From: Crocinitomicaceae bacterium | GTDB taxonomy: Bacteria; Bacteroidota; Bacteroidia; Flavobacteriales_G; Salibacteraceae | Assembly: GCA_002707155.1 (NCBI GenBank) | Contig: PAME01000022.1 | Location: forward strand, 28,422-92,421 | DNA: 64,000 bases | Reading direction: 5' to 3' | Shown here: positions 7,375 through 23,098 of the stretch, one piece after another | Layout: every line of letters starts with the position of its first letter | Position numbering within the stretch: the stretch's first letter is position 1 | Notes under the pieces: model-generated | What the model saw: the letters and a program-made list of their open reading frames with translations, nothing else | Database searches by the model: none | What the model was told of the DNA's origin: nothing | Translations under genes and position numbers: made by a program

Positions 7375-9027
7375 TTATTTTACTTGAATAATTATATTAC
7401 CATCTAAAGGTCGAGGAGAAGAACCAGGCTTATCCATTTGTGCTACTACTTTCTGGAAGATAGCTGTTTGTCCTGGTTTCATAGTTTTTAATACACTCTT
7501 CATTTCACCAGTCAATCTATTTCCTCGTGCTGTGTATACTGCAGATTTACCTCCAACACTTACAAACATTTCAAAGCTATTAACCTTATATCTCAATTCA
7601 AACAGGAAGTCATCAAGCTTCGCAGTGATAAACTGACCCGTAAGAAGCTTACTCTTCTTCATGTCAACTGAACCTGTTTCGTTATTAAAATAAGGAATAG
7701 GCTTTGGAACAGTTTTTAAACGATATTCAATAGCTGGGTAAGAGTTTTTGACTCCGTCAACATTTGAACTTACCGTAATCCTAACCACTTTATCTTTTGA
7801 TTTCGGATTAGGAATAACCTCATACTTACCTTGTTCTTTGCTTTTAGGAACAACACGGCAGCCACCACCAGCAATTGTCATTGTCAAATTCAGAGAAGCA
7901 ACACCAGAAACAGATATATCAACTGGATTCTCCAAACCTTTGTAAAAAACATTCATCTTGGTAGGGGAAACAACCAAACTAGGTTTTGCAACCATGTATT
8001 TATGATCGAACTTATACGCAGCCCATTTTCCATTAGGTTTCAAAATCTTGATAATACCGCCCCATGTTTGCTCTCCTAGAGTAGAGGTTTTTACCCCATA
8101 AGTAGGTATTCCTCTATTTTCAAATTTTACTGCTGAGGTATCCCCATCCTTAACTTCAGGTTGATCCCCTGTTGTGTCAACTACACCGATAACGAGCTTA
8201 GGGTTTTTCGTCGTGCTATAAGCTGCAACAATTACGTCCGCTTTAAATGAATCTCCTTGGGTAATGTATGTTCCATTGTGCGGTATGACTTTTACAGCCA
8301 AGGTATCAAATGAAAAGTCATCTGCACCAATTTCAGACATTAGTTCTTTTAAAGCATCTGCCTCTGAATTTCTGACTGACGCTTGAAAACGAGTTAAATT
8401 TGTCACAGTGGCAGCTAGCGGTAAATGATTGAAATTTCCGATTTCCCATTCAACTAACATACCATGTTCCTTCATTTGCCCCAATGGAATTTTCATTTCG
8501 GCTACTAATCCCTTTTCTAAAATAAAACTCTCCAAATGCTCATTGAAGACACCTATCTTAGACTTTAAACTTAATGCACTATACTCCTGGTCTGCACCTA
8601 ATGGATTGTTCAAATCAGGACCAATCATAATTTGAGCACCAACATCTTGGTTGTCCTTACTATGACAATGTTCAATTGAAAATGCAGAATCTGGTGCATC
8701 ATCCGGCAGTTGATCCGCAGTTTGAACCAGCTTCCTTTTAATCTTTTCAATAAGCTCTACAATCTCATCAGCATTTTCTTTCAATTCTTTTGCATGCTCA
8801 TAAAACTCTCCCACTTTGGCAGGATCATCAGCCATTTTACGACCAAAAACATCGTAAGTCTGATTAATCTTACTTTCAAAGTTTTCAGTTGTTCTTTCTA
8901 AACCTTCATTAATAATTAAAAATGATTGCAGAATCTCTTTCGATACATTCATGGCAAGCATACAAAGCAATACCAGATACATCAAATTGATCATCTTCTG
9001 CCTTGGTTCCATATCACCTAACGACAT
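7375..9027 (-). CDS. gldM: Gliding motility / type IX secretion motor protein GldM (PorM)
   Basis: Inner-membrane protein whose single N-terminal helix (about 14-34, MINLMYLVLLCMLAMNV) packs with GldL to make the proton-powered T9SS/gliding motor, while its large periplasmic domains reach the GldK/GldN ring. The start MSLGDMEPRQKMINLMYLVLLCMLAMNVSKEIL is nearly invariant in the family, and the remaining ~500 residues have the expected beta-rich domains. 550 aa is slightly longer than many homologues. Sits between gldL and gldN on one operon. Confidence 0.93.
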   Translation of the reverse strand: MSLGDMEPRQKMINLMYLVLLCMLAMNVSKEILQSFLIINEGLERTTENFESKINQTYDVFGRKMADDPAKVGEFYEHAKELKENADEIVELIEKIKRKLVQTADQLPDDAPDSAFSIEHCHSKDNQDVGAQIMIGPDLNNPLGADQEYSALSLKSKIGVFNEHLESFILEKGLVAEMKIPLGQMKEHGMLVEWEIGNFNHLPLAATVTNLTRFQASVRNSEADALKELMSEIGADDFSFDTLAVKVIPHNGTYITQGDSFKADVIVAAYSTTKNPKLVIGVVDTTGDQPEVKDGDTSAVKFENRGIPTYGVKTSTLGEQTWGGIIKILKPNGKWAAYKFDHKYMVAKPSLVVSPTKMNVFYKGLENPVDISVSGVASLNLTMTIAGGGCRVVPKSKEQGKYEVIPNPKSKDKVVRITVSSNVDGVKNSYPAIEYRLKTVPKPIPYFNNETGSVDMKKSKLLTGQFITAKLDDFLFELRYKVNSFEMFVSVGGKSAVYTARGNRLTGEMKSVLKTMKPGQTAIFQKVVAQMDKPGSSPRPLDGNIIIQVK

Positions 9028-9090: not shown

Positions 9091-9945
9091 TTATGAATTT
9101 GCGTTAGGATTCATTGCTGTAAGCATATTTCCATAAACCGTATTCAAGGAAGTAATGTTTCTAGAAAGTTCACTCATTTTTTCAGAGTATACTTTAGCGT
9201 CGTCAACAGAATTATTAAGACTTGCCATTAATTCATCAACTCCAGTAAAATATCCTTTAGAATTTTCTAAAGTTTCTTGCGCGCTTCTTAATTGCAACTC
9301 ATACGCAGAATTCAATTCTGTTAAATTAGAGGACATTTTCGACAATTGCTCACCAAAATTTGAAACTTCTCTATTTTCCTCTTCAAGTACCGAAATTGCG
9401 TTAGCAGCACTAGTATATTTCTCTGTTAAACTTGACACAGAATTAGCCGCTCCTCTAACACTTTGAACGTACTCATCAGTTGCAGCAGCAGCATCTGTCA
9501 TGTCTGTTAGTTTGCCTGCTTGATCACTCAATCCTCTTAGACCAACACCTAAGCTTTCCAATAATTCCGGCCCTATTTTTGCCTCCTCTAGCATTTCATC
9601 TAATTTCTGAGTAACCGTTAAATCATCTCCTTCTCCATTTTCTGCTAAAGCTTCTGATTCAAAATCATCTTCCTCTTCTTCATCTGAATGTCTCAGTTCA
9701 GGGTAAACTTTAGACCAATCATCTTTTAAATGTTGTGGTTCAATAGCACCCAAAGCAAACAACGCAGATTCAGTACAAAGACCGATAATCAGCATTAAAC
9801 TAGCACCTGGATAATGCTGGATTTTAAACAATGCACCTAGAATTACAATTGCAGCTCCTAAACTCATAGCCATGTTTACAATTGTCTTTCCTTTTTCTGT
9901 TCCGTATAGAAACGCTGCTAATCCACCCTTTTTTTTCCCTGACAT
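9091..9945 (-). CDS. gldL: Gliding motility / type IX secretion motor protein GldL (PorL)
   Basis: Stator-like inner-membrane partner of GldM. Two adjacent helices (about residues 22-42 and 47-68, including GALFKIQHYPGASLMLIIGL with the buried charged residue typical of the proton channel) are followed by an acidic stretch (DEEEEDDFESE) and a long cytoplasmic coiled-coil region. The start MSGKKKGGLAAFLYGTEKGK is characteristic of the family. 284 aa. Lies between gldK and gldM with short gaps. Confidence 0.93.
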   Translation of the reverse strand: MSGKKKGGLAAFLYGTEKGKTIVNMAMSLGAAIVILGALFKIQHYPGASLMLIIGLCTESALFALGAIEPQHLKDDWSKVYPELRHSDEEEEDDFESEALAENGEGDDLTVTQKLDEMLEEAKIGPELLESLGVGLRGLSDQAGKLTDMTDAAAATDEYVQSVRGAANSVSSLTEKYTSAANAISVLEEENREVSNFGEQLSKMSSNLTELNSAYELQLRSAQETLENSKGYFTGVDELMASLNNSVDDAKVYSEKMSELSRNITSLNTVYGNMLTAMNPNANS

Positions 9946-9984: not shown

Positions 9985-11298
9985 TTAAATATCGCTTTTA
10001 CCCATTCCCAAATAACTCATTACATTTCTAAATCCGATATACGATTTAGCAGTATCCTGATATTCGTATGTTCTAGAACTTGTTTGAAGGAAATAACCAA
10101 CATCTTTCCAAGAGCCACCTCTTATCACTTTTCTTTTCAATACCGGAGGATCATCGTCCTCAGCTTCATATTTGTAATCCATGTTTAAGTCATGAGCGAA
10201 ATCATAAACCGACTCATCAAATGCAGTTGTTGTCCATTCAGCAACATTACCAGCCATGCAATACAATCCAAAATCGTTAGGTTCATATGAAACTACAGGA
10301 ACAGTATGAATACCACCATCATCATAGTAATTACCGCGAAGTGGCTTAAAGTTTGCCAAGAAACAACCCCTTGTATTTCTAATGTACGGTCCGCCCCAAG
10401 GATATGGAGATAAATCTAATCCTCCTCGTGCAGCATATTCCCATTCAGATTCAGTTGGCAATCTATAATCTTGCACAAAAGATTCACCAACAGAGGACAA
10501 AAATTTGTTATGCTCTAATGTCCTCCAAATAGAAAATGCTCTAGCTTGCTTCCAAGTCACACCAACTAAAGGATATTCATCATAAGCTGGATGCCAAAAA
10601 TACATGTTTGTAAGCGGCTCATTATATGAGTAGGTAAAATCATGAATCCAACACAAAGTGTCTGGATAAACAGAAATCTCGTCTCTACGAATAAAAACTG
10701 ATCTATCATTCATGCCTCTATCACGCAAAGGATCACCATTGATGGTAGGACTTTTCCTTGCAGCATCTTTGTAATCAATCCAGTAATATTCATAAACTAA
10801 TTTCCTAGTGTCCAAGGACTTTTTACCATAGAACCTTTCGTATTCAGGCAAAAACATTACAGATAGTGCTTCTCTATTCTCGGGATCATTCCAATCTAAA
10901 ACAGCATCCCAATTAATAATTGGCGGATCGATATCCTCTTCATACTCATTAACTGCAATCAGATAAATTTCTTCACTAACTTCCTCTCCAAGTATTTTAT
11001 ACGCCATAGAATCTCGCACCCAATAAACAAATTGACGATATTCATTATTCGTAATTTCAGTTTCGTCCATATAAAATGGTGAAACAGAAACTGTTTTCGA
11101 TTTAGATGTATAAGAATAGGGAGCATCTTGATCATTTGGTCCCATGTTATAACTACCAGGGGGTATATATAACATCCCATAAGGATCCGGCTGATACCAA
11201 ACCTGCCGTCCTAAAACACCTGTCAACTGTCCACCTGCATCATTCATGCAACTAGAAAGGATAAGTGCTACGAATCCTACTATGAGTAACTTTTTCAT
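9985..11298 (-). CDS. gldK: Gliding motility / type IX secretion lipoprotein GldK (PorK)
   Basis: Outer-membrane lipoprotein that forms the periplasmic ring with GldN. MKKLLIVGFVALILSSC is a lipoprotein signal with lipobox LSSC. The body is a formylglycine-generating-enzyme (FGE-sulfatase) fold: GSYNMGPND, SPFYMDETEITNNEYRQF, YPLVGVTWKQA, RLPTESEWEYAARGG, GLYCMAGNVAEW, RGGSW and SYIGFRNV. Such proteins are structural here, not catalytic. I moved the start from 11361 to the ATG at 11298 because a perfect AGGAGG Shine-Dalgarno lies just upstream, unusual for this phylum, and the signal peptide starts there. 437 aa. Confidence 0.92.
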   Translation of the reverse strand: MKKLLIVGFVALILSSCMNDAGGQLTGVLGRQVWYQPDPYGMLYIPPGSYNMGPNDQDAPYSYTSKSKTVSVSPFYMDETEITNNEYRQFVYWVRDSMAYKILGEEVSEEIYLIAVNEYEEDIDPPIINWDAVLDWNDPENREALSVMFLPEYERFYGKKSLDTRKLVYEYYWIDYKDAARKSPTINGDPLRDRGMNDRSVFIRRDEISVYPDTLCWIHDFTYSYNEPLTNMYFWHPAYDEYPLVGVTWKQARAFSIWRTLEHNKFLSSVGESFVQDYRLPTESEWEYAARGGLDLSPYPWGGPYIRNTRGCFLANFKPLRGNYYDDGGIHTVPVVSYEPNDFGLYCMAGNVAEWTTTAFDESVYDFAHDLNMDYKYEAEDDDPPVLKRKVIRGGSWKDVGYFLQTSSRTYEYQDTAKSYIGFRNVMSYLGMGKSDI

Positions 11299-11311
11299 GT
11301 TACCTCCTTTT
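11299..11311 (-). promoter_or_regulatory. Strong Shine-Dalgarno deciding the gldK start
   Basis: Read on the - strand, AAAGGAGGTAAC immediately precedes ATG AAA. A full AGGAGG is rare in Bacteroidota genes; it fixes the gldK start at 11298 and suggests high translation of this ring component. Confidence 0.6.
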
Positions 11312-11404
11312 TTAGATATGTGAATATTTTTAAACAATACAATTTTATGGCTAAACGCCAAAATTAACGCAAATAAAACAAATTATTGTGAATAAACTAA
11401 TTTC

Positions 11405-12400
11405 CTACAACCAACGTGGGTTTTTGTGAATAGTAATTTTTGGTTTAGGAGTTATTGTAAAACAGTAATTAAGGAACACTTCTACTGTTCCACTATTGAA
11501 GCTTCTCAGCTTTGAAGTATTTAAATCATAAGACGCGCCTATCTTTAGTACACCTGGCTTCCCAAAGTCATGCTTATAACCAGCCATTGGAGATACAGCA
11601 TCTTGAATTCTATAAGAAACCCCACCCCATAACATGTCTTTGTATATTGCTCTAGCATTAAAATCAAACTGAGTTGTGGAGAATTCTGTTTTCAAGAAAA
11701 CCGAAGGAACAAATTCCCAATCCGGGACTAAATTGTCAATCCTATAACCTCCCATAACATACAAGTGAGACTCAATTTTATAATCATTGGACTGCCCATT
11801 AACTTCATTTCCTTGCAACTCGCTTTGTGTTAAGTGCATCATTGAAGCACCAACAAATATTTTATTACTAGCACTTCTAAAATAAGCTCCCATGTCAAAA
11901 TCGAAACCATACGCCTTACCAGCTCCAGCATCAGGGGCCAAATTTGGGTCAGTAATTACACCAGTGGTGGCATCTTCGCCGTCTGGGGTCAAAAAGTTAC
12001 TTCCATCAATCACAGCGCCTAACGTACCAATACCCAAGCCTATACTCAATGTTCCCGCATTAAAAGTAAATCTATTTGAAATTGCCAATTTAAACACATT
12101 TGTATTTAATGGTCCTATAACATCGTTAGCCGCTGTAAAACCGACACCTAAGTTTATAAAGTTCACATCGACTGGTAATTTAATCGGTGCATGAACAGAA
12201 ACTAACCCTGTCTGAGGAGAACCGTCAAAACCCAACCATTGTTGCCTGCCAATAACTGTAGCACAGATTGCCCCGTTCATACCAGCAAAGCCAGGATTAT
12301 TGTATAACTTGTTTGCAAAGTTTTGTGTAAATTGAGGATCCTGCTGACCAAGAACACTCAACGTACTGAAAGTTAAAACAATAAGTATTATTCTCTTCAT
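11405..12400 (-). CDS. porP: PorP/SprF-family type IX secretion outer-membrane protein
   Basis: Beta-barrel outer-membrane protein of the PorP/SprF family, first gene of the por operon. The signal peptide MKRIILIVLTFSTLSVLGQQ is followed by DPQFTQNFANKLYNNPGFAGMNG, the family's hallmark opening, then alternating amphipathic beta strands to an aromatic C-terminus. The ORF track uses a GTG at 12409; I prefer the ATG at 12400, which starts the signal peptide. 331 aa. Lies about 106 bp before gldK, matching porPKLMN of Porphyromonas gingivalis. PorP anchors the ring or the gliding machinery to the outer membrane. Confidence 0.88.
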   Translation of the reverse strand: MKRIILIVLTFSTLSVLGQQDPQFTQNFANKLYNNPGFAGMNGAICATVIGRQQWLGFDGSPQTGLVSVHAPIKLPVDVNFINLGVGFTAANDVIGPLNTNVFKLAISNRFTFNAGTLSIGLGIGTLGAVIDGSNFLTPDGEDATTGVITDPNLAPDAGAGKAYGFDFDMGAYFRSASNKIFVGASMMHLTQSELQGNEVNGQSNDYKIESHLYVMGGYRIDNLVPDWEFVPSVFLKTEFSTTQFDFNARAIYKDMLWGGVSYRIQDAVSPMAGYKHDFGKPGVLKIGASYDLNTSKLRSFNSGTVEVFLNYCFTITPKPKITIHKNPRWL

Positions 12401-12544
12401 AAACACCACTTTTTTACGTGAATAAGTCGACTAAATTAGTCAAAAAAATAAATCAACCAAATATTATTAACATAAAGCGAAACTATCAATCAACCTTATT
12501 ATTACCTGAAATTTAGCACCTTAAAGATACAAACCAGATTACAG

Positions 12545-13705
12545 CTACCGTAATCTTTTATAATTCCTCCACCACTTTTCAGGAATTCCGTCATTACATG
12601 CCTGCTGATAGTCAGTGTAACTGCAAGGAACAAGCTGATGTCGTCTATACTTGGATAATTTCGACTCAGGGTATGGAACATCCATCCACCATCTATCTGA
12701 CTTCAAGTTTTTATAAAAGACTATCTCGTCCGCATCAGTAGAAGTTGAAACAGTATATTTTAAAACATCATTCCCGTCCTTAGTCAAACCGTCTCCTTTC
12801 CTGTTGTAAAACCCCTCTACTATATACCAAACCATTTCAGCAATCAAAAATGCTGTTTGACCTTGCTGATCTACCTCAGGGTTATATTCATAAATACCAA
12901 TACTTGAAAGCTTGTCACTTAAACCGGCATATCTTGTTATTGCGCAAATCTCTTCTCCATTAAAACCGTTTGGCGTTGTATTCTTATTTCCAGGAGCATC
13001 GGCACTGCGGACTGATGAAATATCTATAGATAACATATCCGCATTTCTAACTATCGGCTCAACCTCCTTCATATCATTTTTCACCTCACCCAATCGGTGA
13101 ATATCGAAATAGAGCTTCTCCATTAGGGACCTTTCCTCTTCTGAGACGAAATAGGTTTGATACCCCAAATTACTGTAACTGAAAAGGTAATTTGGTTGAT
13201 GCAAAATAATTTTATTCAAAAATGCTTTTGAGTTCATTGGCTGGTCAACTTCTCCCATGTCTATAGAATTATCAACGGTAACAATATTAACTATTTGCTC
13301 AAGTGACTCATATGCTTGATAGTTTGCAAAAGTCAAGTCTTGACTTCCACCCAAAATGATTGGAAGTACATTTTCCTTGATACATGCTGAAATCGCTGAA
13401 CTAACCGCAAAATAGGTGTCAGATACTTCTTCCCCTGGAAAAATATCTCCTAAATCCGCAATAGAACAGTTCCAGTTTCGCTTAAGTGCATAAAACTTTT
13501 TGCGAATTTCATCAACTCCATCAGCGCATCCAGCGTTATTTATTGCATTTCTATCTTCAACTACACCAAAAATGACAATATCGAATTCAGTCAAATCTGG
13601 AAAGTCACTTAATCCATTGTTTATCTGAATCTTTTCTCCGATTGAATTTGATGCAAAATCAGAATTCAAGAATTCAACTTTGTTAAAATAGATATCAAGT
13701 TCCAT
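12545..13705 (-). CDS. Arginase/ureohydrolase-fold protein, probable non-canonical or inactive
   Basis: Related to arginase, agmatinase and formimidoylglutamase, but metal ligands are missing. Where active members have GGxHx there is ILGGSQDL (118-124, His to Gln). DAHxD is VDNSID (144-149, His to Ser). SxDxDxxDPxxxPG is SIDISSVRSADAPG (226-239, second Asp to Ser). Three of the six usual Mn ligands (D145, D149, D228) remain. A C-terminal extension of about 70 residues rich in Trp, Tyr and Arg follows the catalytic fold. I recall annotated Bacteroidota relatives with the same GGSQD, so this looks like a conserved lineage rather than decay. It sits between topA and the por operon; no hut or arginine genes are nearby. 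Function unknown; a formimidoylglutamase label would be unsafe. Confidence 0.75.
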   Translation of the reverse strand: MELDIYFNKVEFLNSDFASNSIGEKIQINNGLSDFPDLTEFDIVIFGVVEDRNAINNAGCADGVDEIRKKFYALKRNWNCSIADLGDIFPGEEVSDTYFAVSSAISACIKENVLPIILGGSQDLTFANYQAYESLEQIVNIVTVDNSIDMGEVDQPMNSKAFLNKIILHQPNYLFSYSNLGYQTYFVSEEERSLMEKLYFDIHRLGEVKNDMKEVEPIVRNADMLSIDISSVRSADAPGNKNTTPNGFNGEEICAITRYAGLSDKLSSIGIYEYNPEVDQQGQTAFLIAEMVWYIVEGFYNRKGDGLTKDGNDVLKYTVSTSTDADEIVFYKNLKSDRWWMDVPYPESKLSKYRRHQLVPCSYTDYQQACNDGIPEKWWRNYKRLR

Positions 13706-13728: not shown

Positions 13729-16233
13729 CTACTTTTTCTTTTTAGCTCTTGTTGCCTTTTTCACTCCTCCTCTGCCCTTTATTGCAGTGGTATTTTTCTC
13801 GATAATATCTTTAACGGCCTCAAGCGAAAGACTTGCCGCATCAACTGTTTTTGGAAGTTCAATCTTAGTTTTACCCTTTAGAATATTAGACCTGCCCCAG
13901 CGCGCTTTTTCTACTCTGATCCCTTCTTCTGACCAATTATGAATCACCTTATCAATTTCTTTTTGCTTTTTATCTTCAATCAATTGCACAATATCCTCAT
14001 GAGAAAGATTATCAAAATTGTATTTCTTATTCACGTTGATAAACATGTTGTTCCACTTAATAAAAGGACCAAATCTGCCAACCCCTTTTTGAACAGGGAG
14101 TTCATCGTAATGATCTATAGGTGCATCAGCTGCTTTTTTAGCTTCAATCAGCTCAATTGCTCTCGGCAGCTCAATTGACATGGGATCTTCATTACGATCT
14201 AAGGAAACGAACATTGTACCATATTTAACATAAGGTCCAAACCGACCTACGGCAATTACGACTTCTTCCTTGTCCAGTTTTCCTAATGTTTTAGGAAGTT
14301 TAAAAAACTCTAAAGCTTGCTCAAGGGTAACTTTCGTCATACTTACATTTCCTCGAATTGGAGAAAACAAAGGCTTTTCTTCATCTTCGCGCTCACCAAT
14401 TTGAATCATAGGTCCAAACCGACCAATTTTGGCATAGACATTCTTACCTGATTTAGGATCTTTCCCTAGTAATCGTTCGCCATTTGCTCGGCCTTCGTCT
14501 TCTAAAGCGTCATTAACGGATTTATGAAAAGGGCCATAGAAACGATCTATCATATCGTTCCACTTTTTTAAACCTTCTGCTATTTCATCAAATTCTTTCT
14601 CAACCTCAGCAGTAAAACCATAATCTAACACAGAAGGAAAAGTTTTTACCAAATAGTCGTTTACTACCCTGCCAATATCCGTTGGAAATAATTTCTTCCT
14701 TTCCGCACCGGTATTTTCAACCTTGTTTTCTTCCTTGACATCATTTCGAGCGATTAAAGACAATTGACGGAATTTTCGCTCATGGCCATCACGATCTTCT
14801 TTTTCCACATAACCCCTCTTTTGAACGGTATTGATGGTAGGCGCATAAGTGGAAGGTCGACCGATTCCTAAGGTCTCTAACTTTTTCACCAAGCTGGCCT
14901 CACTGTATCTAGGAGGGTGATTTGTAAATCTTTCTGTAGCAAGAATTGACTTCGGCTCTAATACCTGCCCTTCATTGATTGGAGGCAACATTCCTTGCTC
15001 TTCCTGTTCTTCATCATCATCAACTCCTTCTAAATATACTTTCAGAAAGCCATCAAATAATAAAACCTCACCTTTTGCTTTAAAATGTTCTCCTTTACTT
15101 TTACTTACATCAATAACCACATTGGTTTTCTCAAATTTGGCATTTGACATTTGCGAGGCAACTGTTCTTTTCCATATTAACTCGTATAGCTTTTGCAGGC
15201 TAAAATCACCTCCAATTGTGTGTTCTGCAAAGTTCGTAGGCCGAATCGCCTCATGAGCTTCTTGAGCGCCCTTGGACTTGGTTGTATATTGTTTGATGTT
15301 TGAGTATTCTGAGCCATATGATTTTAGAATTTCGTCCTTAGCTCCATCGATTGCAGTTTGTGAAAGATTCATAGAATCTGTTCTCATATAGGTGATTTTA
15401 CCACTTTCATATAATTTTTGAGCAACGACCATAGTCTGTTGAACCGAGTAACCCAACTTTCTACTAGCCTCTTGCTGCAATGTTGAAGTGGTAAAAGGTG
15501 CTGAAGGAGAACGAGTGCCTGGCTTTTTTTCAATTGAGGTAATAGTAAATTCACTTTCCTTGCATGTTTTCAAAAAGGACAACGCATCGGCTTCTTTCTC
15601 AAATTTATGCTGCAATTCTGCTTTAAGAACACTTTTTTCATCCACCAAAAACTCAGCATTAACTCGATATGCAGAAATCGGTACAAATGCTTCAACCTCT
15701 TCTTCGCGCTCTACAATAAGACGAACTGTCACAGATTGCACGCGCCCTGCCGATAAAGACGGTTTTACTTTTCGCCACAATACAGGTGAAAGCTCAAAGC
15801 CAACTAATCGATCTAATACTCTTCGCGCTTGTTGGGCGTCAACTAAATTCTTATCAATTATTCTGGGATTCTCAATTGCTCTTGTAATTGCTGGTTTTGT
15901 AATTTCATGAAACACAATGCGTTTGGTCTTTTCTGGAGTTAGCCCCAAAGTTTCATACAAATGCCAACTAATAGCTTCCCCCTCTCGATCCTCATCCGTT
16001 GCCAACCAGACCATTTCACTTTTCTTGGCTAATTTACGCAGCTCTTTTACGATTGCAGTTTTATCTTTCATAACCTCATAATGAGGTGTAAAACCATTTT
16101 CAATATCGATTGCTTTGTCTTTTCCAGCCAAATCTCTTACGTGTCCAAAACTAGACTTTACAGTAAACCCTTTACCTAAAAAACCTTCTATAGTTTTAGC
16201 CTTCGCAGGTGACTCAACAATTACTAAATTCAT
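13729..16233 (-). CDS. topA: DNA topoisomerase I (type IA)
   Basis: Relaxes negative supercoils through a covalent 5'-phosphotyrosine. The Toprim domain (MNLVIVESPAKAKTIEGFLG, then ATDEDREGEAISWHL at 78-92) leads to catalytic Y282 in TYMRTDSMNLS and YSEASLVKKLETLGIGRPSTYA. Instead of the zinc fingers of E. coli TopA, the C-terminus carries repeated modules with RFGP cores (IGRFGPMIQIG, VGRFGPYVKYG, VGRFGPFIKWN and a weaker RWGRSNILKG) and a lysine-rich tail (KKATRAKKKK). 834 aa is normal for the phylum. It is divergent from miaB and upstream of the arginase-fold gene on the same strand. Confidence 0.96.
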   Translation of the reverse strand: MNLVIVESPAKAKTIEGFLGKGFTVKSSFGHVRDLAGKDKAIDIENGFTPHYEVMKDKTAIVKELRKLAKKSEMVWLATDEDREGEAISWHLYETLGLTPEKTKRIVFHEITKPAITRAIENPRIIDKNLVDAQQARRVLDRLVGFELSPVLWRKVKPSLSAGRVQSVTVRLIVEREEEVEAFVPISAYRVNAEFLVDEKSVLKAELQHKFEKEADALSFLKTCKESEFTITSIEKKPGTRSPSAPFTTSTLQQEASRKLGYSVQQTMVVAQKLYESGKITYMRTDSMNLSQTAIDGAKDEILKSYGSEYSNIKQYTTKSKGAQEAHEAIRPTNFAEHTIGGDFSLQKLYELIWKRTVASQMSNAKFEKTNVVIDVSKSKGEHFKAKGEVLLFDGFLKVYLEGVDDDEEQEEQGMLPPINEGQVLEPKSILATERFTNHPPRYSEASLVKKLETLGIGRPSTYAPTINTVQKRGYVEKEDRDGHERKFRQLSLIARNDVKEENKVENTGAERKKLFPTDIGRVVNDYLVKTFPSVLDYGFTAEVEKEFDEIAEGLKKWNDMIDRFYGPFHKSVNDALEDEGRANGERLLGKDPKSGKNVYAKIGRFGPMIQIGEREDEEKPLFSPIRGNVSMTKVTLEQALEFFKLPKTLGKLDKEEVVIAVGRFGPYVKYGTMFVSLDRNEDPMSIELPRAIELIEAKKAADAPIDHYDELPVQKGVGRFGPFIKWNNMFINVNKKYNFDNLSHEDIVQLIEDKKQKEIDKVIHNWSEEGIRVEKARWGRSNILKGKTKIELPKTVDAASLSLEAVKDIIEKNTTAIKGRGGVKKATRAKKKK

Positions 16234-16414: not shown

Positions 16415-16445
16415 TTGACAGCTCCTTAATTATTGGCTAATTTTG
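16415..16445 (+). promoter_or_regulatory. Bacteroidota-type promoter of the miaB operon
   Basis: TTG at 16415-16417, 20 bases, then TAATTTTG at 16438-16445, a full match to the -33/-7 consensus (TTG, 19-20 bases, TAnnTTTG), followed by CACCC. The TTG that the ORF track uses as a miaB start is part of this -7 element, which supports the downstream ATG at 16476. Confidence 0.65.
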
Positions 16446-16475
16446 CACCCTTATTATACACAGAAAGCGAATTCC

Positions 16476-17906
16476 ATGCCCATAGACACAAAAGATATAG
16501 TTGAGGAAATTCAGGGTAATTCTACCCAAGTCGATTTACCAGTAAAACCAAATGGAAAAAAACTTTATTTGGAATCCTATGGGTGTGCTATGAATTTTTC
16601 TGATAGCGAAATCGTTGCTTCTATTTTAACTAAAGAGGGATTTACTACTACCTATAAACCGCAAGAAGCGGATCTTATTCTCATTAACACCTGTTCAATT
16701 AGGGATAAAGCAGAACAAACTGTTCGAAATAAACTCAAAGAGTTTTTAGGTATGAAACGTAAATTCAACCCAAAAATGAAAGTTGGCATCTTGGGTTGTA
16801 TGGCTGAACGATTAAAAACACAGTTACTTGAAGAAGAAAAGCTGGTTGATTTAGTTGCTGGCCCTGATTCATACAGGGACTTACCGGGTTTGATTGAGGA
16901 AATAGAAAGTGGACAAAAAGCAGTAAACGTTTTATTATCACGTGATGAAACTTATGCAGATATTTCCCCAGTAAAACTTGGTTCAAATGGTGTTTCTTCA
17001 TTCATTTCAATTACCAGAGGCTGCGACAACATGTGTTCTTTTTGTGTAGTTCCTTTTACAAGAGGTAGAGAACGCAGCAGAAACCCGGAAACTATTGTTC
17101 AAGAAGCAAGAGATCTATTTGAGTTGGGTTTCAGAGAAGTAACACTCCTTGGACAAAATGTAGATTCATACCGATGGAACATTTCCAAAAAAGGGGAAAT
17201 AAAAGATGCAAACGAAGCAACAGTAAGTTTTGCCCAACTTATGGTTATGGTTGCTAAGGTAAACCCATTACTCAGAGTGCGTTTTTCGACCTCACACCCG
17301 AAGGACATGACAAACGATGTCATGCATGCAATAAAAGAACATAAAAACATCTGTAATTACGTGCATTTACCTGTCCAATCAGGCAATAGTGAAATGCTAA
17401 AAAGAATGAATCGGGGTTATACTCGTGAATGGTATTTGAATAGAATTGATGCGATTAAAACAATTACCCCTGAATGTACCATTAGTACTGACCTAATTAT
17501 CGGGTTTTGTGATGAGACAGAACAAGAACACCAAGACACGATATCGTTGGTTAAAGAAGTAGAGTTTAGCTTTGCGTACATGTACAAATATTCAGAACGC
17601 CCAAAAACTTTAGCCGAACGTAAATACGAAGACAACGTTCCAGAGAATCTAAAAGCCGAGCGTCTGAGTGAAATAATCGAAATTCAACGAAGAAACCAAC
17701 GAAAGATCAACGACTCCTTTATTGGGCATACCAAAGAAGTTTTAATCGAAGGTCCATCGAAAAAAAATCCAGATGAATTTTGCGGAAGAATCTCCGAAAA
17801 CACTATGGTTATTTTTCCGAATCACAACTTCAAACCTGGACAATATGTTGATGTTAAAATAACCGCTGCGACTTCAGCCACATTGAGAGGAGAAGCAATA
17901 GTTTAA
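16476..17906 (+). CDS. miaB: tRNA-2-methylthio-N6-dimethylallyladenosine synthase MiaB
   Basis: Radical-SAM methylthiotransferase that adds the 2-methylthio group to i6A37 of tRNAs. The N-terminal domain carries the auxiliary cluster cysteines C37 (YGCAMN), C73 (NTCSIR) and C108 (GCMAER). The radical-SAM CxxxCxxC is [10 protein letters not shown] (C183, C187, C190), and a TRAM domain closes the chain ([11 protein letters not shown]...[10 protein letters not shown]). From the ATG at 16476 the protein is 476 aa. The track's TTG start at 16443 overlaps the promoter -7 element. First gene of the run leading to secG. Confidence 0.95.
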
Positions 17907-17912
17907 AAAGAA

Positions 17913-19181
17913 ATGACGGTTCAACAACTAAAACAACGATTCGAAATTATTGGCACCTCTGAGTCCTTGGATAGAGCTATTGAAACAGCTATGCGAGTTG
18001 CACCTACAGACTTAAGCGTGCTAGTTACTGGCGAAAGTGGAACTGGAAAAGAAAATTTTCCTAGAATTATTCACCAACTAAGCAATCGAAAACATAAAAA
18101 ATACATCGCGGTTAACTGCGGAGCTATTCCAGAAGGAACTATCGACTCAGAACTTTTTGGCCACGAAAAAGGCGCTTTTACTGGAGCTCAAAATGCGCGT
18201 CAAGGTTATTTCGAAGAAGCAGATGGCGGTACTATCTTTTTAGACGAAGTAGGTGAATTGCCGCTTCAAACTCAAGTACGACTGCTAAGAGTATTATAAA
18301 CAGGCGAATTTATTAAGGTAGGGTCAAGCAAGGTTCAAAAAACCAATGTTAGAATTGTTGCTGCAACCAATGTTAAACTGCCAGAAAGTATTCGCAAGGA
18401 GAAATTTAGGGAAGACCTTTTTTATAGGTTAAGCACGGTGCCTTTAACCCTGCCAGCATTGAGAAATCGCAAATCGGATATTTATTTACTTTTTCGCAAA
18501 TTCTCATCAGACTTCGCAGAAAAGTACACTATGCCGCCTGTTCGATTAACCGAGGATGCACAGCATTTACTTATGAACTACAACTGGGCTGGAAACATTC
18601 GACAGTTAAAAAATGTAACGGAGCAAATTTCAATTATTGAAACCGAACGCACCATCACCTCGGAAGGAATTTTAAAATATTTACCGAATTATTCCAGCAC
18701 TAACTTGCCTGCTGTTACCTCAAAAAAGAGTCAATCAGAAGGGTTTGAAAATGAAAGAGAAATTCTTTATAAAGTTCTATTTGATTTAAAAAGCGACGTA
18801 ACCGATTTGAAAAAATTAGTACTTGAAATGGCACGTACGAATAACATTGATACCGACAACTCTGAAAACTCCAGGATTCTTACTCAAATAATTAAAGATG
18901 TAAATTCGGGAAGTGAAAGACAACTTCCGGTTGCAAAAGAGCCTAAAGTTGAAAGTGATGAAACGGAAAATGCGTATTCACCAATATATTCAAATCCCGA
19001 TACCGATGGGTTCCAACATCACGAGGTAATAGAAGAGTCACTTTCTTTGGAGGAAAAAGAAAAAGAAATGATTGCAAAAGCCTTAGAAAAGTACAATGGC
19101 AAAAGAAAAATGGCTGCAAGTGAGCTAGGAATAAGCGAACGCACCCTTTACCGAAAAATTAAAGAATACGATCTAAATTGA
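17913..19181 (+). pseudogene. Sigma-54-dependent activator interrupted by one in-frame stop
   Basis: Sigma-54 AAA+ activator without a receiver domain. Walker A is TGESGTGKE (39-47), the sigma-54 contact loop is GAFTGA (87-92), Walker B is GTIFLDEVGE (106-115), and a Fis-type helix-turn-helix ends the chain (KRKMAASELGISERTLYRKIKEY). The frame is broken once, by TAA at 18297-18299, where the family would be expected to have Glu (VRLLRVL-stop-TGEFIKVGSSKVQKTNVRIVAATN). Both halves are in the same frame (tracks 17913-18299 and 18438-19181), and the sequence between them codes for perfect family sequence. A single GAA to TAA change explains everything. Undisturbed length would be 422 aa. Either a recent null mutation or a sequence error. 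The last codons overlap lptE (ATTGA). The miaB, sigma-54 activator, lptE order recurs in Bacteroidota. Confidence 0.85.
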
Positions 19182-19687
19182 GCCGAATTTCTATCTTATT
19201 AATTGCTTTAGCTTCAACCATTTTTACTGGTTGCAAAATAAATTACGGCTTCTCTGGAGCATCGGTCGACTACAATGAAGTAAAGACATATTCCGTTGAT
19301 TTTTTTCCAAATTACGCGCCTCTTGCCCAACCAACCCTATCTCAGGAGTTTACCGAGGCTTTGCGAAATATTTTTTTAAACCAAACCAAATTAGACCTTA
19401 CTAAACAAGACGGTGATCTACAATTTTCTGGAAAAATCGTGGATTATAGAACTGCACCGGTAAGTATTCAAGCATCTGAAGTTGCTGCTCAGAACCGACT
19501 CACTGTGACTGTTAGTGTGGTATTTGTAAATACAAAAGATGATACTAAAAATTTCGAACAATCGTTCAGTCAGTTTATTGACTATGACAGCCAAAGACCA
19601 CTTTCTGAAGTTGAAGGCGAGCTCATTTCTCAAGTGAATGAATTATTGGTTCAAGATATTTTTAATCAAGCCGTAAGTGACTGGTAA
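19178..19687 (+). CDS. lptE: LptE-family LPS-assembly lipoprotein
   Basis: Outer-membrane lipoprotein expected to plug LptD during lipopolysaccharide export. It has a short signal with lipobox (SILLIALASTIFTGC), then the family opening INYGFSGASVDYNEVKTYSVDFFPNYAPLAQPTLSQEFTEALRN and a compact alpha/beta body ending DIFNQAVSDW. 169 aa. Starts with TTG at 19178, overlapping the stop of the upstream regulator (ATTGA), which implies translational coupling. Its stop overlaps the next ATG (TAATG). Confidence 0.85.
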   Translation: MSRISILLIALASTIFTGCKINYGFSGASVDYNEVKTYSVDFFPNYAPLAQPTLSQEFTEALRNIFLNQTKLDLTKQDGDLQFSGKIVDYRTAPVSIQASEVAAQNRLTVTVSVVFVNTKDDTKNFEQSFSQFIDYDSQRPLSEVEGELISQVNELLVQDIFNQAVSDW

Positions 19688-20610
19688 TGAATTTTAATTG
19701 GTTAACCGAAAGCATAGAGAATCCCGCTGTTTTATTGCAGTCTAAGTCAGAACTGCAGGAATTAAAACAGCGCTATCCATATTTATCGAGCTTGTATGTT
19801 TTTGATGCTAAATTGGAGCAGCTTGAGTCAGGTTTAGACTATCAGGATAAAATTAAAAAAGCAGCTATTTATGCTTCCAACCGAAGTGCTTTGTACGAGT
19901 ATGTAATTAAGCCTAATGTTGAAGAAGCAATTGCAAATCAAGAAAAGAATACTACAAAAAATGCAGTAATCGATTCTACCACAAGCCAATCAAAAACGGA
20001 ACAAGCACAACTTGATGTGGTCCCAGAGCGGTCATTAACTCAAAAAGAAAAAGACGAAAAACGAGCTTTAGAAAAAGAGATATTGAACCACGCTATATCA
20101 GCTTCAATACTTAAAGAAAGTGCTTCATCCCCTACTAAAAGCCAAAAAGATGAAGCTGAAATAAAGGAAACTGAAGTTCTGAAAAAACCAACACCAGAAG
20201 AACCAAAAATTGAATTGGACAACTCCATGGGTGTTCTTGATTGGCTTAACTCAAGTTTAGTTAAAGAAACAGTACATTCTAATACGTCAACATCAACTCC
20301 TGTTGTCCAGAAGAGTCAATTGATTGAGAAATTCATTAAAGGAGGAGAAGAAAAAATCCATTTAACAAAAGAAGTTACACCTACACTCCTTCAGATTGAA
20401 AGGCCTCAAACCGAATTTTTCTCGCCTGAAAACATGGCGAAAATGAGTCTGGCTGAAAACGAAGACTTTGTTACTGAGACACTTGCCAAAATTTACGCCC
20501 AACAAGGCAACATTAAAAAAGCGATTTCAGCTTATGAAAAATTAAGTTTGAAAATTCCCGAAAAAAGCAATTACTTTGCGCTCCTTATTCAAGAATTGAA
20601 AGAAAATTAG
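19687..20610 (+). CDS. Conserved Bacteroidota protein with a C-terminal TPR-like repeat
   Basis: I do not recognise a named family. The N-terminus is helical and polar (NWLTESIENPAVLLQSKSELQELKQRYPYLSSLYVFDAKLEQLESG), with a long Lys/Glu/Ser/Thr-rich central linker (about residues 75-240). The C-terminal ~50 residues contain one good TPR-like repeat: ETLAKIYAQQGNIKKAISAYEKLSLKIPEKSNYF. No signal peptide or membrane segment, so probably cytoplasmic. Coupled to lptE (TAATG) and seven bases before secG, an arrangement that hints at an envelope or scaffold role, but this is only context. Confidence 0.7.
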   Translation: MNFNWLTESIENPAVLLQSKSELQELKQRYPYLSSLYVFDAKLEQLESGLDYQDKIKKAAIYASNRSALYEYVIKPNVEEAIANQEKNTTKNAVIDSTTSQSKTEQAQLDVVPERSLTQKEKDEKRALEKEILNHAISASILKESASSPTKSQKDEAEIKETEVLKKPTPEEPKIELDNSMGVLDWLNSSLVKETVHSNTSTSTPVVQKSQLIEKFIKGGEEKIHLTKEVTPTLLQIERPQTEFFSPENMAKMSLAENEDFVTETLAKIYAQQGNIKKAISAYEKLSLKIPEKSNYFALLIQELKEN

Positions 20611-20616
20611 AATCTT

Positions 20617-20982
20617 ATGTTAACATTCATTTTTATAATCATATTTATCGTTTGTATTCTGCTGATTGGAGTTGTACTTGTACAAGAATCCAAAGGTGGT
20701 GGATTAGCAAGCGGATTTTCTTCTGCGAATCAAGTAATGGGGGTTAAAAAAACCGCCGATGTTTTAGAAAAAGCGACTTGGGGATTAGCAATTTTATTGC
20801 TTTGCCTTTGTTTAGGCGCTGCTGCATTGCAAGGTACAGGAGACGCAACTGAGTTAACACCGGAAGAATCACAAATTCAAGATTTTGTTGAAAGTGAAAC
20901 TATTCTTCCAACTCAACAAGGTCCTGCTCCTGGCCAAAGTGGACAGCAACCCATTCAGCAGCAAGAAGCTCCAGCTGAATAA
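20617..20982 (+). CDS. secG: Preprotein translocase subunit SecG
   Basis: Small two-helix partner of SecYE. Helices span about residues 2-22 (LTFIFIIIFIVCILLIGVVLVQ) and 55-72 (WGLAILLLCLCLGAAALQG), with the conserved loop VQESKGGGLASGFSSANQVMGVKKTADVLEKATW between them. A Gln/Pro-rich cytoplasmic or periplasmic tail of about 45 residues follows, as in other Bacteroidota SecG. 121 aa. Followed by a strong terminator. Confidence 0.93.
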   Translation: MLTFIFIIIFIVCILLIGVVLVQESKGGGLASGFSSANQVMGVKKTADVLEKATWGLAILLLCLCLGAAALQGTGDATELTPEESQIQDFVESETILPTQQGPAPGQSGQQPIQQQEAPAE

Positions 20983-21008
20983 ATTAAAACCTTCAAGAAA
21001 GACATTTT

Positions 21009-21049
21009 AAAAAGTGTCAGTATGTCATTCATACTGACACTTTTTTTGG
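21009..21049 (+). terminator. Intrinsic terminator after secG
   Basis: Long perfect hairpin AAAGTGTCAGTATG-tcatt-CATACTGACACTTT followed by a T run. Ends the miaB-secG transcript and isolates groESL. Confidence 0.88.
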
Positions 21050-21154
21050 CCAAAACTGAAAAATTGACCCAAACTGTCTGCTATACTCCAATGGCATATG
21101 AAATGATATGGTGCAGTGAAACATTCAAAAGTTTAACTAAAAATATATTACAAA

Positions 21155-21430
21155 ATGGGATTAAACATCAAACCTTTAGCAGACCGGGTAGTAGTTGAAC
21201 CTGCTGCAGCCGAAGAAAAAACTGCAGGTGGAATCATTATTCCGGATACAGCCAAAGAAAAACCACAAAAAGGAAAAGTACTAGCAGTTGGAAATGGGAA
21301 ACCAGATGAACCAATGACTGTAAAAGTTGGCGACACGGTACTTTACGGAAAGTACTCAGGAACTGAAATCTCAATAGACGGCGGTGATTACCTAATGATG
21401 AGAGAAGCAGACATTTTTGCTATTGTTTAA
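21155..21430 (+). CDS. groS: Co-chaperonin GroES
   Basis: Seven-fold lid of the GroEL chamber. [45 protein letters not shown] holds the mobile loop ([11 protein letters not shown]) that docks on GroEL, and [14 protein letters not shown] is conserved. 91 aa, full length. The 105 bp between the secG terminator and this start must hold the promoter, but I see no CIRCE element and no clean TAnnTTTG. Cotranscribed with groL 24 bases downstream. Confidence 0.96.

Positions 21431-23098
<1,668 letters not shown>

Follow-up and report, generated by a model that had tools for sequence, protein, structure and literature searches.

A Bacteroidia-wide arginase-fold family without MnB-specific ligands, encoded beside topA and type IX secretion genes: a putative pseudo-ureohydrolase

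Introduction

Catalytic members of the arginase/ureohydrolase superfamily build a binuclear metal centre from six canonical ligands, H, D, H, D, D and D, as named for E. coli SpeB (PMC8049259). Some proteins keep the fold without that centre. In metformin hydrolase, MetCb (MefH-beta) is a metal-free arginase-family pseudoenzyme, encoded beside an active partner and assembled with it (PMC11271267, PMC11399263). An arginase-like protein of Trypanosoma brucei is described by the paper citing it as likewise having the arginase fold without a binuclear Mn cluster (Hai 2015, cited in PMC11271267), and other arginase-fold proteins without a binuclear centre, cited in the same source, have functions that are called elusive there.

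Here, we describe a gene, hereafter ARG, from a Crocinitomicaceae bacterium, located in a window (i.e., the whole stretch of DNA that was analysed) of 64,000 nucleotides. ARG encodes an arginase-fold protein and lies between topA and the core operon (porP-gldKLM) of the type IX secretion system (T9SS). Unlike the T. brucei protein, which is eukaryotic and is compared here through its citing description only, ARG represents a family across a bacterial class; unlike MetCb/MefH-beta, it has no linked partner. It is near-universal in a large class, usually present in one copy, under strong selection and adjacent to core genes of a major secretion system. In the literature we searched on arginase-like proteins, gliding, T9SS and gldK, we found no description of this family, and none of the papers found ties an arginase-fold pseudoenzyme to the Bacteroidota T9SS. 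Sequence search alone puts ARG among urea-forming enzymes; if it is a pseudoenzyme, labels such as arginase or formimidoylglutamase for such genes are misleading, and, given a defined partner, it would be a very widespread addition to the short list of arginase-fold pseudoenzymes. If it touches the T9SS, an unexamined gene sits next to a well-studied operon.

Results and discussion

An arginase-fold protein related to formimidoylglutamases

The locus comprises the following genes (window coordinates):

12545..13705, minus strand: ARG, arginase-fold protein, formimidoylglutamase-like, without the MnB-specific ligands, 386 aa (open reading frame, profiles and fold match)
13729..16233, minus strand: topA, DNA topoisomerase I, upstream of ARG across a 23 bp gap
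11405..12409, minus strand: porP/sprF family T9SS membrane protein, downstream, about 135 bp from ARG
9985..11361, minus strand: gldK/porK, T9SS ring lipoprotein (TIGR03525, 586 bits)
9091..9945, minus strand: gldL/porL, T9SS motor protein
7375..9027, minus strand: gldM/porM, T9SS motor protein

ARG starts with ATG, and its translation has no hydrophobic N-terminus and no signal peptide. Both profile and structure searches place it in the arginase/ureohydrolase superfamily. Residues 42-295 match Pfam Arginase PF00491 (2e-22; 80.4 bits against a cut-off of 22), and an AlphaFold2 model of the full-length protein (mean pLDDT 65, moderate confidence) retrieves only ureohydrolases as top Foldseek matches in the PDB (best E 2.6e-11). 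TM-scores on the query are low (0.43-0.50) because the model is of moderate confidence. These results sustain the proposal, made when the sequence was first read (the original prediction), that the fold is intact. The PDB relatives are the agmatinase 3pzl and the formimidoylglutamases 3m1r, 4mxr and 1xfk, and the best NCBIfam match is the formimidoylglutamase HutG (TIGR01227), whose equivalog cut-off is not reached (93.2 bits vs 229.15). HutG, which has the same fold and provides the closest solved relatives, differs in that ARG lacks the MnB ligands and hut neighbours and adds a C-terminal extension of about 85 residues.

Loss of the MnB side of the metal site

In arginase, the MnA ion is bound by H101, D124, D128 and D232, and the MnB ion by H126, D124, D232 and D234. 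The corresponding motifs of ARG are:

13337..13351, minus strand: GGSQD, residues 119-123, with Gln122 where the first ligand His is expected
13259..13273, minus strand: DNSID, residues 145-149, with D145 and D149 kept and Ser147 instead of the MnB His
13016..13030, minus strand: SIDIS, residues 226-230, with D228 kept and Ser230 instead of the MnB Asp

The original prediction had read these three motifs in place of the canonical ones and concluded that half of the metal ligands are replaced. This is literally right: positions 122, 147 and 230 are replaced, whereas D145, D149 and D228 are kept, leaving three of the six canonical ligands. Across 78 family members, the maximum is four of six. 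Position 122 is Gln in 63 members, His in eight and Asn in four; position 147 is Lys in 23, Arg in 16 (i.e., Lys/Arg in 39) and His in only three; and position 230 is Ser in 35, Asn in 15, Gly in 12 and Thr in nine, with Asp in one doubtfully aligned row. In contrast, Asp is kept at position 145 in 75 members, at 149 in 72 and at 228 in 73, and all three occur together in 70 of the 78. A tree of the members requires at least 12 state changes at position 122 and at least 16 at position 147, so these positions behave unlike catalytic ligands.

Profile alignments place Asn at position 122 in the formimidoylglutamases 3m1r (B. subtilis) and 2a0m/4mxr (T. cruzi); 4myn is an engineered N114H form of formimidoylglutamase. 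Because Asn122 has this precedent in solved formimidoylglutamases, the changes that matter are those at 147 and 230, on the MnB side. The step from GGxHx to GGSQD, although present, is therefore weaker evidence than originally assumed, since known formimidoylglutamases also do without that His. The broader claim that a binuclear Mn site could not form normally is supported by the alignment, in which the MnB-specific ligands are absent family-wide.

It is highly improbable that ARG, with so unusual a site, is active as a ureohydrolase or formimidoylglutamase. Its closest solved relatives are indeed formimidoylglutamases and agmatinases, but both MnB-specific ligands are missing throughout the family, the score falls far under the HutG cut-off, no hut genes adjoin it, and a true HutG occurs alongside ARG in some genomes (L044; L045, which adjoins hutI).

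The retained carboxylate trio could mean that one-metal chemistry persists, which counts against a pseudoenzyme reading. ARG might then be a mononuclear-metal enzyme in which an MnA-type site (Gln/His/Asn122, D145, D149 and D228) holds a single metal and serves some other reaction. This would mirror the histone deacetylases, where the MnB-type site is the one that is kept. The losses at MnB-specific positions alongside survival of the MnA carboxylates in 70 of 78 members fit this idea, as does the Asn at the first ligand position of solved formimidoylglutamases. However, the trio is broken in the lineages of three members (L080, L076 and L077) though the protein persists there, and the ligand columns lie outside the most conserved set, ranking 153, 56, 333, 78, 97 and 236 among 386 columns. 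We thus consider a mononuclear enzyme possible, if rather unlikely.

A conserved family across Bacteroidia

ARG is present in 59 of 60 relatives, and a profile built from 28 members (threshold E <= 1e-20) recovers it from 234 of 246 Bacteroidia genomes, nearly always as a single copy. A quick tree separates the 78 members, as a single group, from two Bacteroidota HutGs (SH-aLRT 95). Compared with two near relatives, the window gene gives dN/dS ratios of 0.034-0.037 at a dS close to saturation; those two relatives, compared with each other, give 0.046 at a dS of 0.19. These values (0.034-0.046), together with the presence of ARG in 59 of 60 relatives, rule out local decay or a pseudogene. The conservation of the variant is not chance: the conserved family originally proposed is found across the class under a dN/dS of about 0.04, and GGSQD-type variants, whose absence from other genomes would have meant local decay, are conserved across Bacteroidia. 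Outside the class but within the phylum, the profile gives mainly weaker matches without the C-terminal part; these resemble canonical arginase-family members, and we did not accept them as ARG.

A second family member occurs in the same assembly (G000:C11:15746-16894; L002, L043:9244-10398), with the motifs GGGHD, DERID and SFDLS. It lies away from por and topA genes, and the tree places it outside the window's family; its contig may be foreign, because the assembly is listed as 6.6% contaminated.

A canonical arginase with all six ligands (L001) is also encoded in the genome, and additional PF00491 members are found in most relatives. These, along with the metformin hydrolase precedent (PMC11271267), lend some credit to the analogy that ARG might be a pseudoenzyme subunit which, like MetCb with MetCa, pairs with and regulates a canonical arginase-family enzyme, in this case one encoded at another locus. 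Yet MetCa and MetCb adjoin in one cluster, whereas in the loci read no active partner or other canonical arginase-family gene was seen side by side with ARG, and the unlinked canonical members vary in kind and size. We regard such pairing as improbable.

Two HutG-like genes of Bacteroidota (L044:8632-9729 and L045:8632-9600) carry Cys at the first Asp of SxDxD (LCSDV and ICLDV), with the other ligands present.

Constrained residues beyond the pocket and the preferred reading

Two further parts of the protein stand out:

12548..12805, minus strand: C-terminal extension, residues 301-386, with WW339-340 and C361; four strands and two helices predicted
13037..13108, minus strand: family-specific stretch, residues 200-223 (FDxxRLG...EPxxRNAD), among the family's most conserved parts

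The extension is Trp/Tyr-rich, as had been noticed from the sequence, with four Trp and seven Tyr in 86 residues. These residues have no match in Pfam, and the module has none among PDB folds (best E 0.99). The best-conserved columns of ARG are G86, G247, G261, G298, C361, F200, E216, R220, W293, F330, W339, Q183 and P217. L080, L076 and L077 are divergent members that have lost most pocket motifs, yet an alignment including all three shows no variation at Trp339 or Cys361.

The best explanation as a whole, to which we assign a probability of roughly 0.55, is that ARG is a conserved pseudo-ureohydrolase of the cytosol whose role lies in binding or regulation, i.e., a Bacteroidia-wide, usually single-copy family that probably arose from formimidoylglutamase-like ureohydrolases and has ceased to be a ureohydrolase. 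Such a pseudoenzyme would act by binding a putative partner protein or small molecule, using the 200-223 stretch together with the C-terminal module and its Trp-Trp and Cys. The pocket would accommodate no more than one cation or, in half the members, the Lys/Arg that occupies the MnB His position.

Gene neighbourhood and transcription

As the original prediction stated, ARG lies beside topA and a same-strand por operon, and the genes read over about 8 kb around it include none of the histidine or arginine pathways. Linked histidine utilisation genes are likewise missing beside ARG, whose neighbours are topA, miaB and T9SS genes. The suggested synteny with gldK and topA recurs. Among the 131 genomes of the class sample with both ARG and gldK positions at hand, gldK lies downstream of ARG on the same strand within 5 kb in 92, and at least one such case occurs in 27 of 38 families. 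The spacing is typically 2.4 kb, with porP in between in the loci read; in one family (f25), gldK follows directly at 1.4 kb. A count of 80 loci, which includes the two HutGs and the second copy L002, has topA directly upstream in 50: with porP downstream in 30, with gldK in 18 and alone in two; porP alone occurs in one and neither in 29. The T9SS neighbourhood is real, the topA-ARG-(porP)-gldK order recurring in 27 of 38 families.

The ARG-porP gap contains one candidate transcription signal:

12461..12489, minus strand: promoter-like sequence before porP, its ATTTGG core kept in three close relatives (consensus match only)

Promoter-like matches in this region are no more frequent than in shuffles. 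The gap also has a terminator-like stem, which is poorly kept in close relatives. The arrangement weakly suggests that ARG may be grouped with topA and that porP may start its own transcript.

Divergent from topA, window positions 16443-23098 carry miaB, a sigma-54-type regulator, an LptE-like gene, secG, groES and groEL; the miaB-regulator-LptE part recurs at four other loci (L034, L036, L088 and L094) and partly at L095. The regulator (17913-19181) is split into two open reading frames (17913-18299 and 18438-19181), whereas near relatives have one frame of ~430 aa, possibly through a frameshift, either real or from sequencing. Clustering of the neighbouring genes shows that, at six loci without por neighbours (L040, L080, L083, L084, L090 and L091), a divergent SDR-like gene adjoins ARG on the opposite strand.

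Co-occurrence with the T9SS

Among the 246 genomes, 230 have ARG and GldK, seven GldK alone, four ARG alone and five neither. GldM is present in two of the four genomes scored as ARG alone, and SprA in one of the five scored as neither; taking GldM and SprA into account, 232 genomes have both ARG and a T9SS, eight the T9SS only, two ARG only and four neither. ARG thus occurs in 232 of 240 T9SS genomes vs two of six without (Fisher P = 4.7e-5, without correction for descent; a single family accounts for three of the four genomes that have neither).

This association, and the gene order kept in 27 of 38 families, favour the view that ARG is a component or regulator dedicated to the T9SS or gliding, and that only a few lineages have lost or replaced it. 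Such a role is compatible with the pseudoenzyme explanation, for which it would name the partner. However, ARG is missing from T9SS-bearing genomes of five families (G057, G473, G414, G488, G247 and G307), and porP-gldKLM operons without ARG were read at loci from five families (L112, L113, L114, L115 and L119). A profile search at full sensitivity upstream of porP in the ARG-less T9SS genomes revealed no hidden copy. One genome (G456) was left uncounted because a long stretch beside its gldK (L116) is masked. In one family (f30), 61 genomes with or without T9SS yielded no ARG, only one chance-level match of 18.7 bits. Conversely, G506, which is 99% complete, keeps ARG with no match to GldK, GldM or SprA. 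The protein also has no signal peptide, and its gene is closer to topA than to porP. On balance, a dedicated T9SS role is a tentative possibility.

The gene order is old and widely kept, yet ARG and the T9SS have been lost separately. ARG is linked to core T9SS genes as a component would be, but is neither universal with the T9SS nor restricted to it, so that the T9SS genomes without ARG and G506 leave an obligatory role unsupported. The tie to type IX secretion or gliding raised in the original prediction therefore stands for gene order (92 of 131 genomes), whereas co-occurrence speaks against an obligatory role. For the preferred pseudo-ureohydrolase, the link to the T9SS is one of neighbourhood, accessory or regulatory at most. 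A bolder version, in which ARG would be a class-wide T9SS accessory factor, made from a ureohydrolase left with the MnA half of its site and sensing a ligand or working as a one-metal sensor so as to relay a cytosolic signal to the machinery of secretion and gliding, seems to us quite unlikely.

In P. gingivalis, the gene upstream of porP (PG0286/PGN_1678) is annotated as uncharacterized or hypothetical, and we do not claim it as ARG; PGN_1678 is up-regulated together with por genes in a (p)ppGpp mutant.

G506 and G061, which belong to one genus of family f22, both have no SprA match; in G061, the GldK and GldM matches lie on opposite strands.
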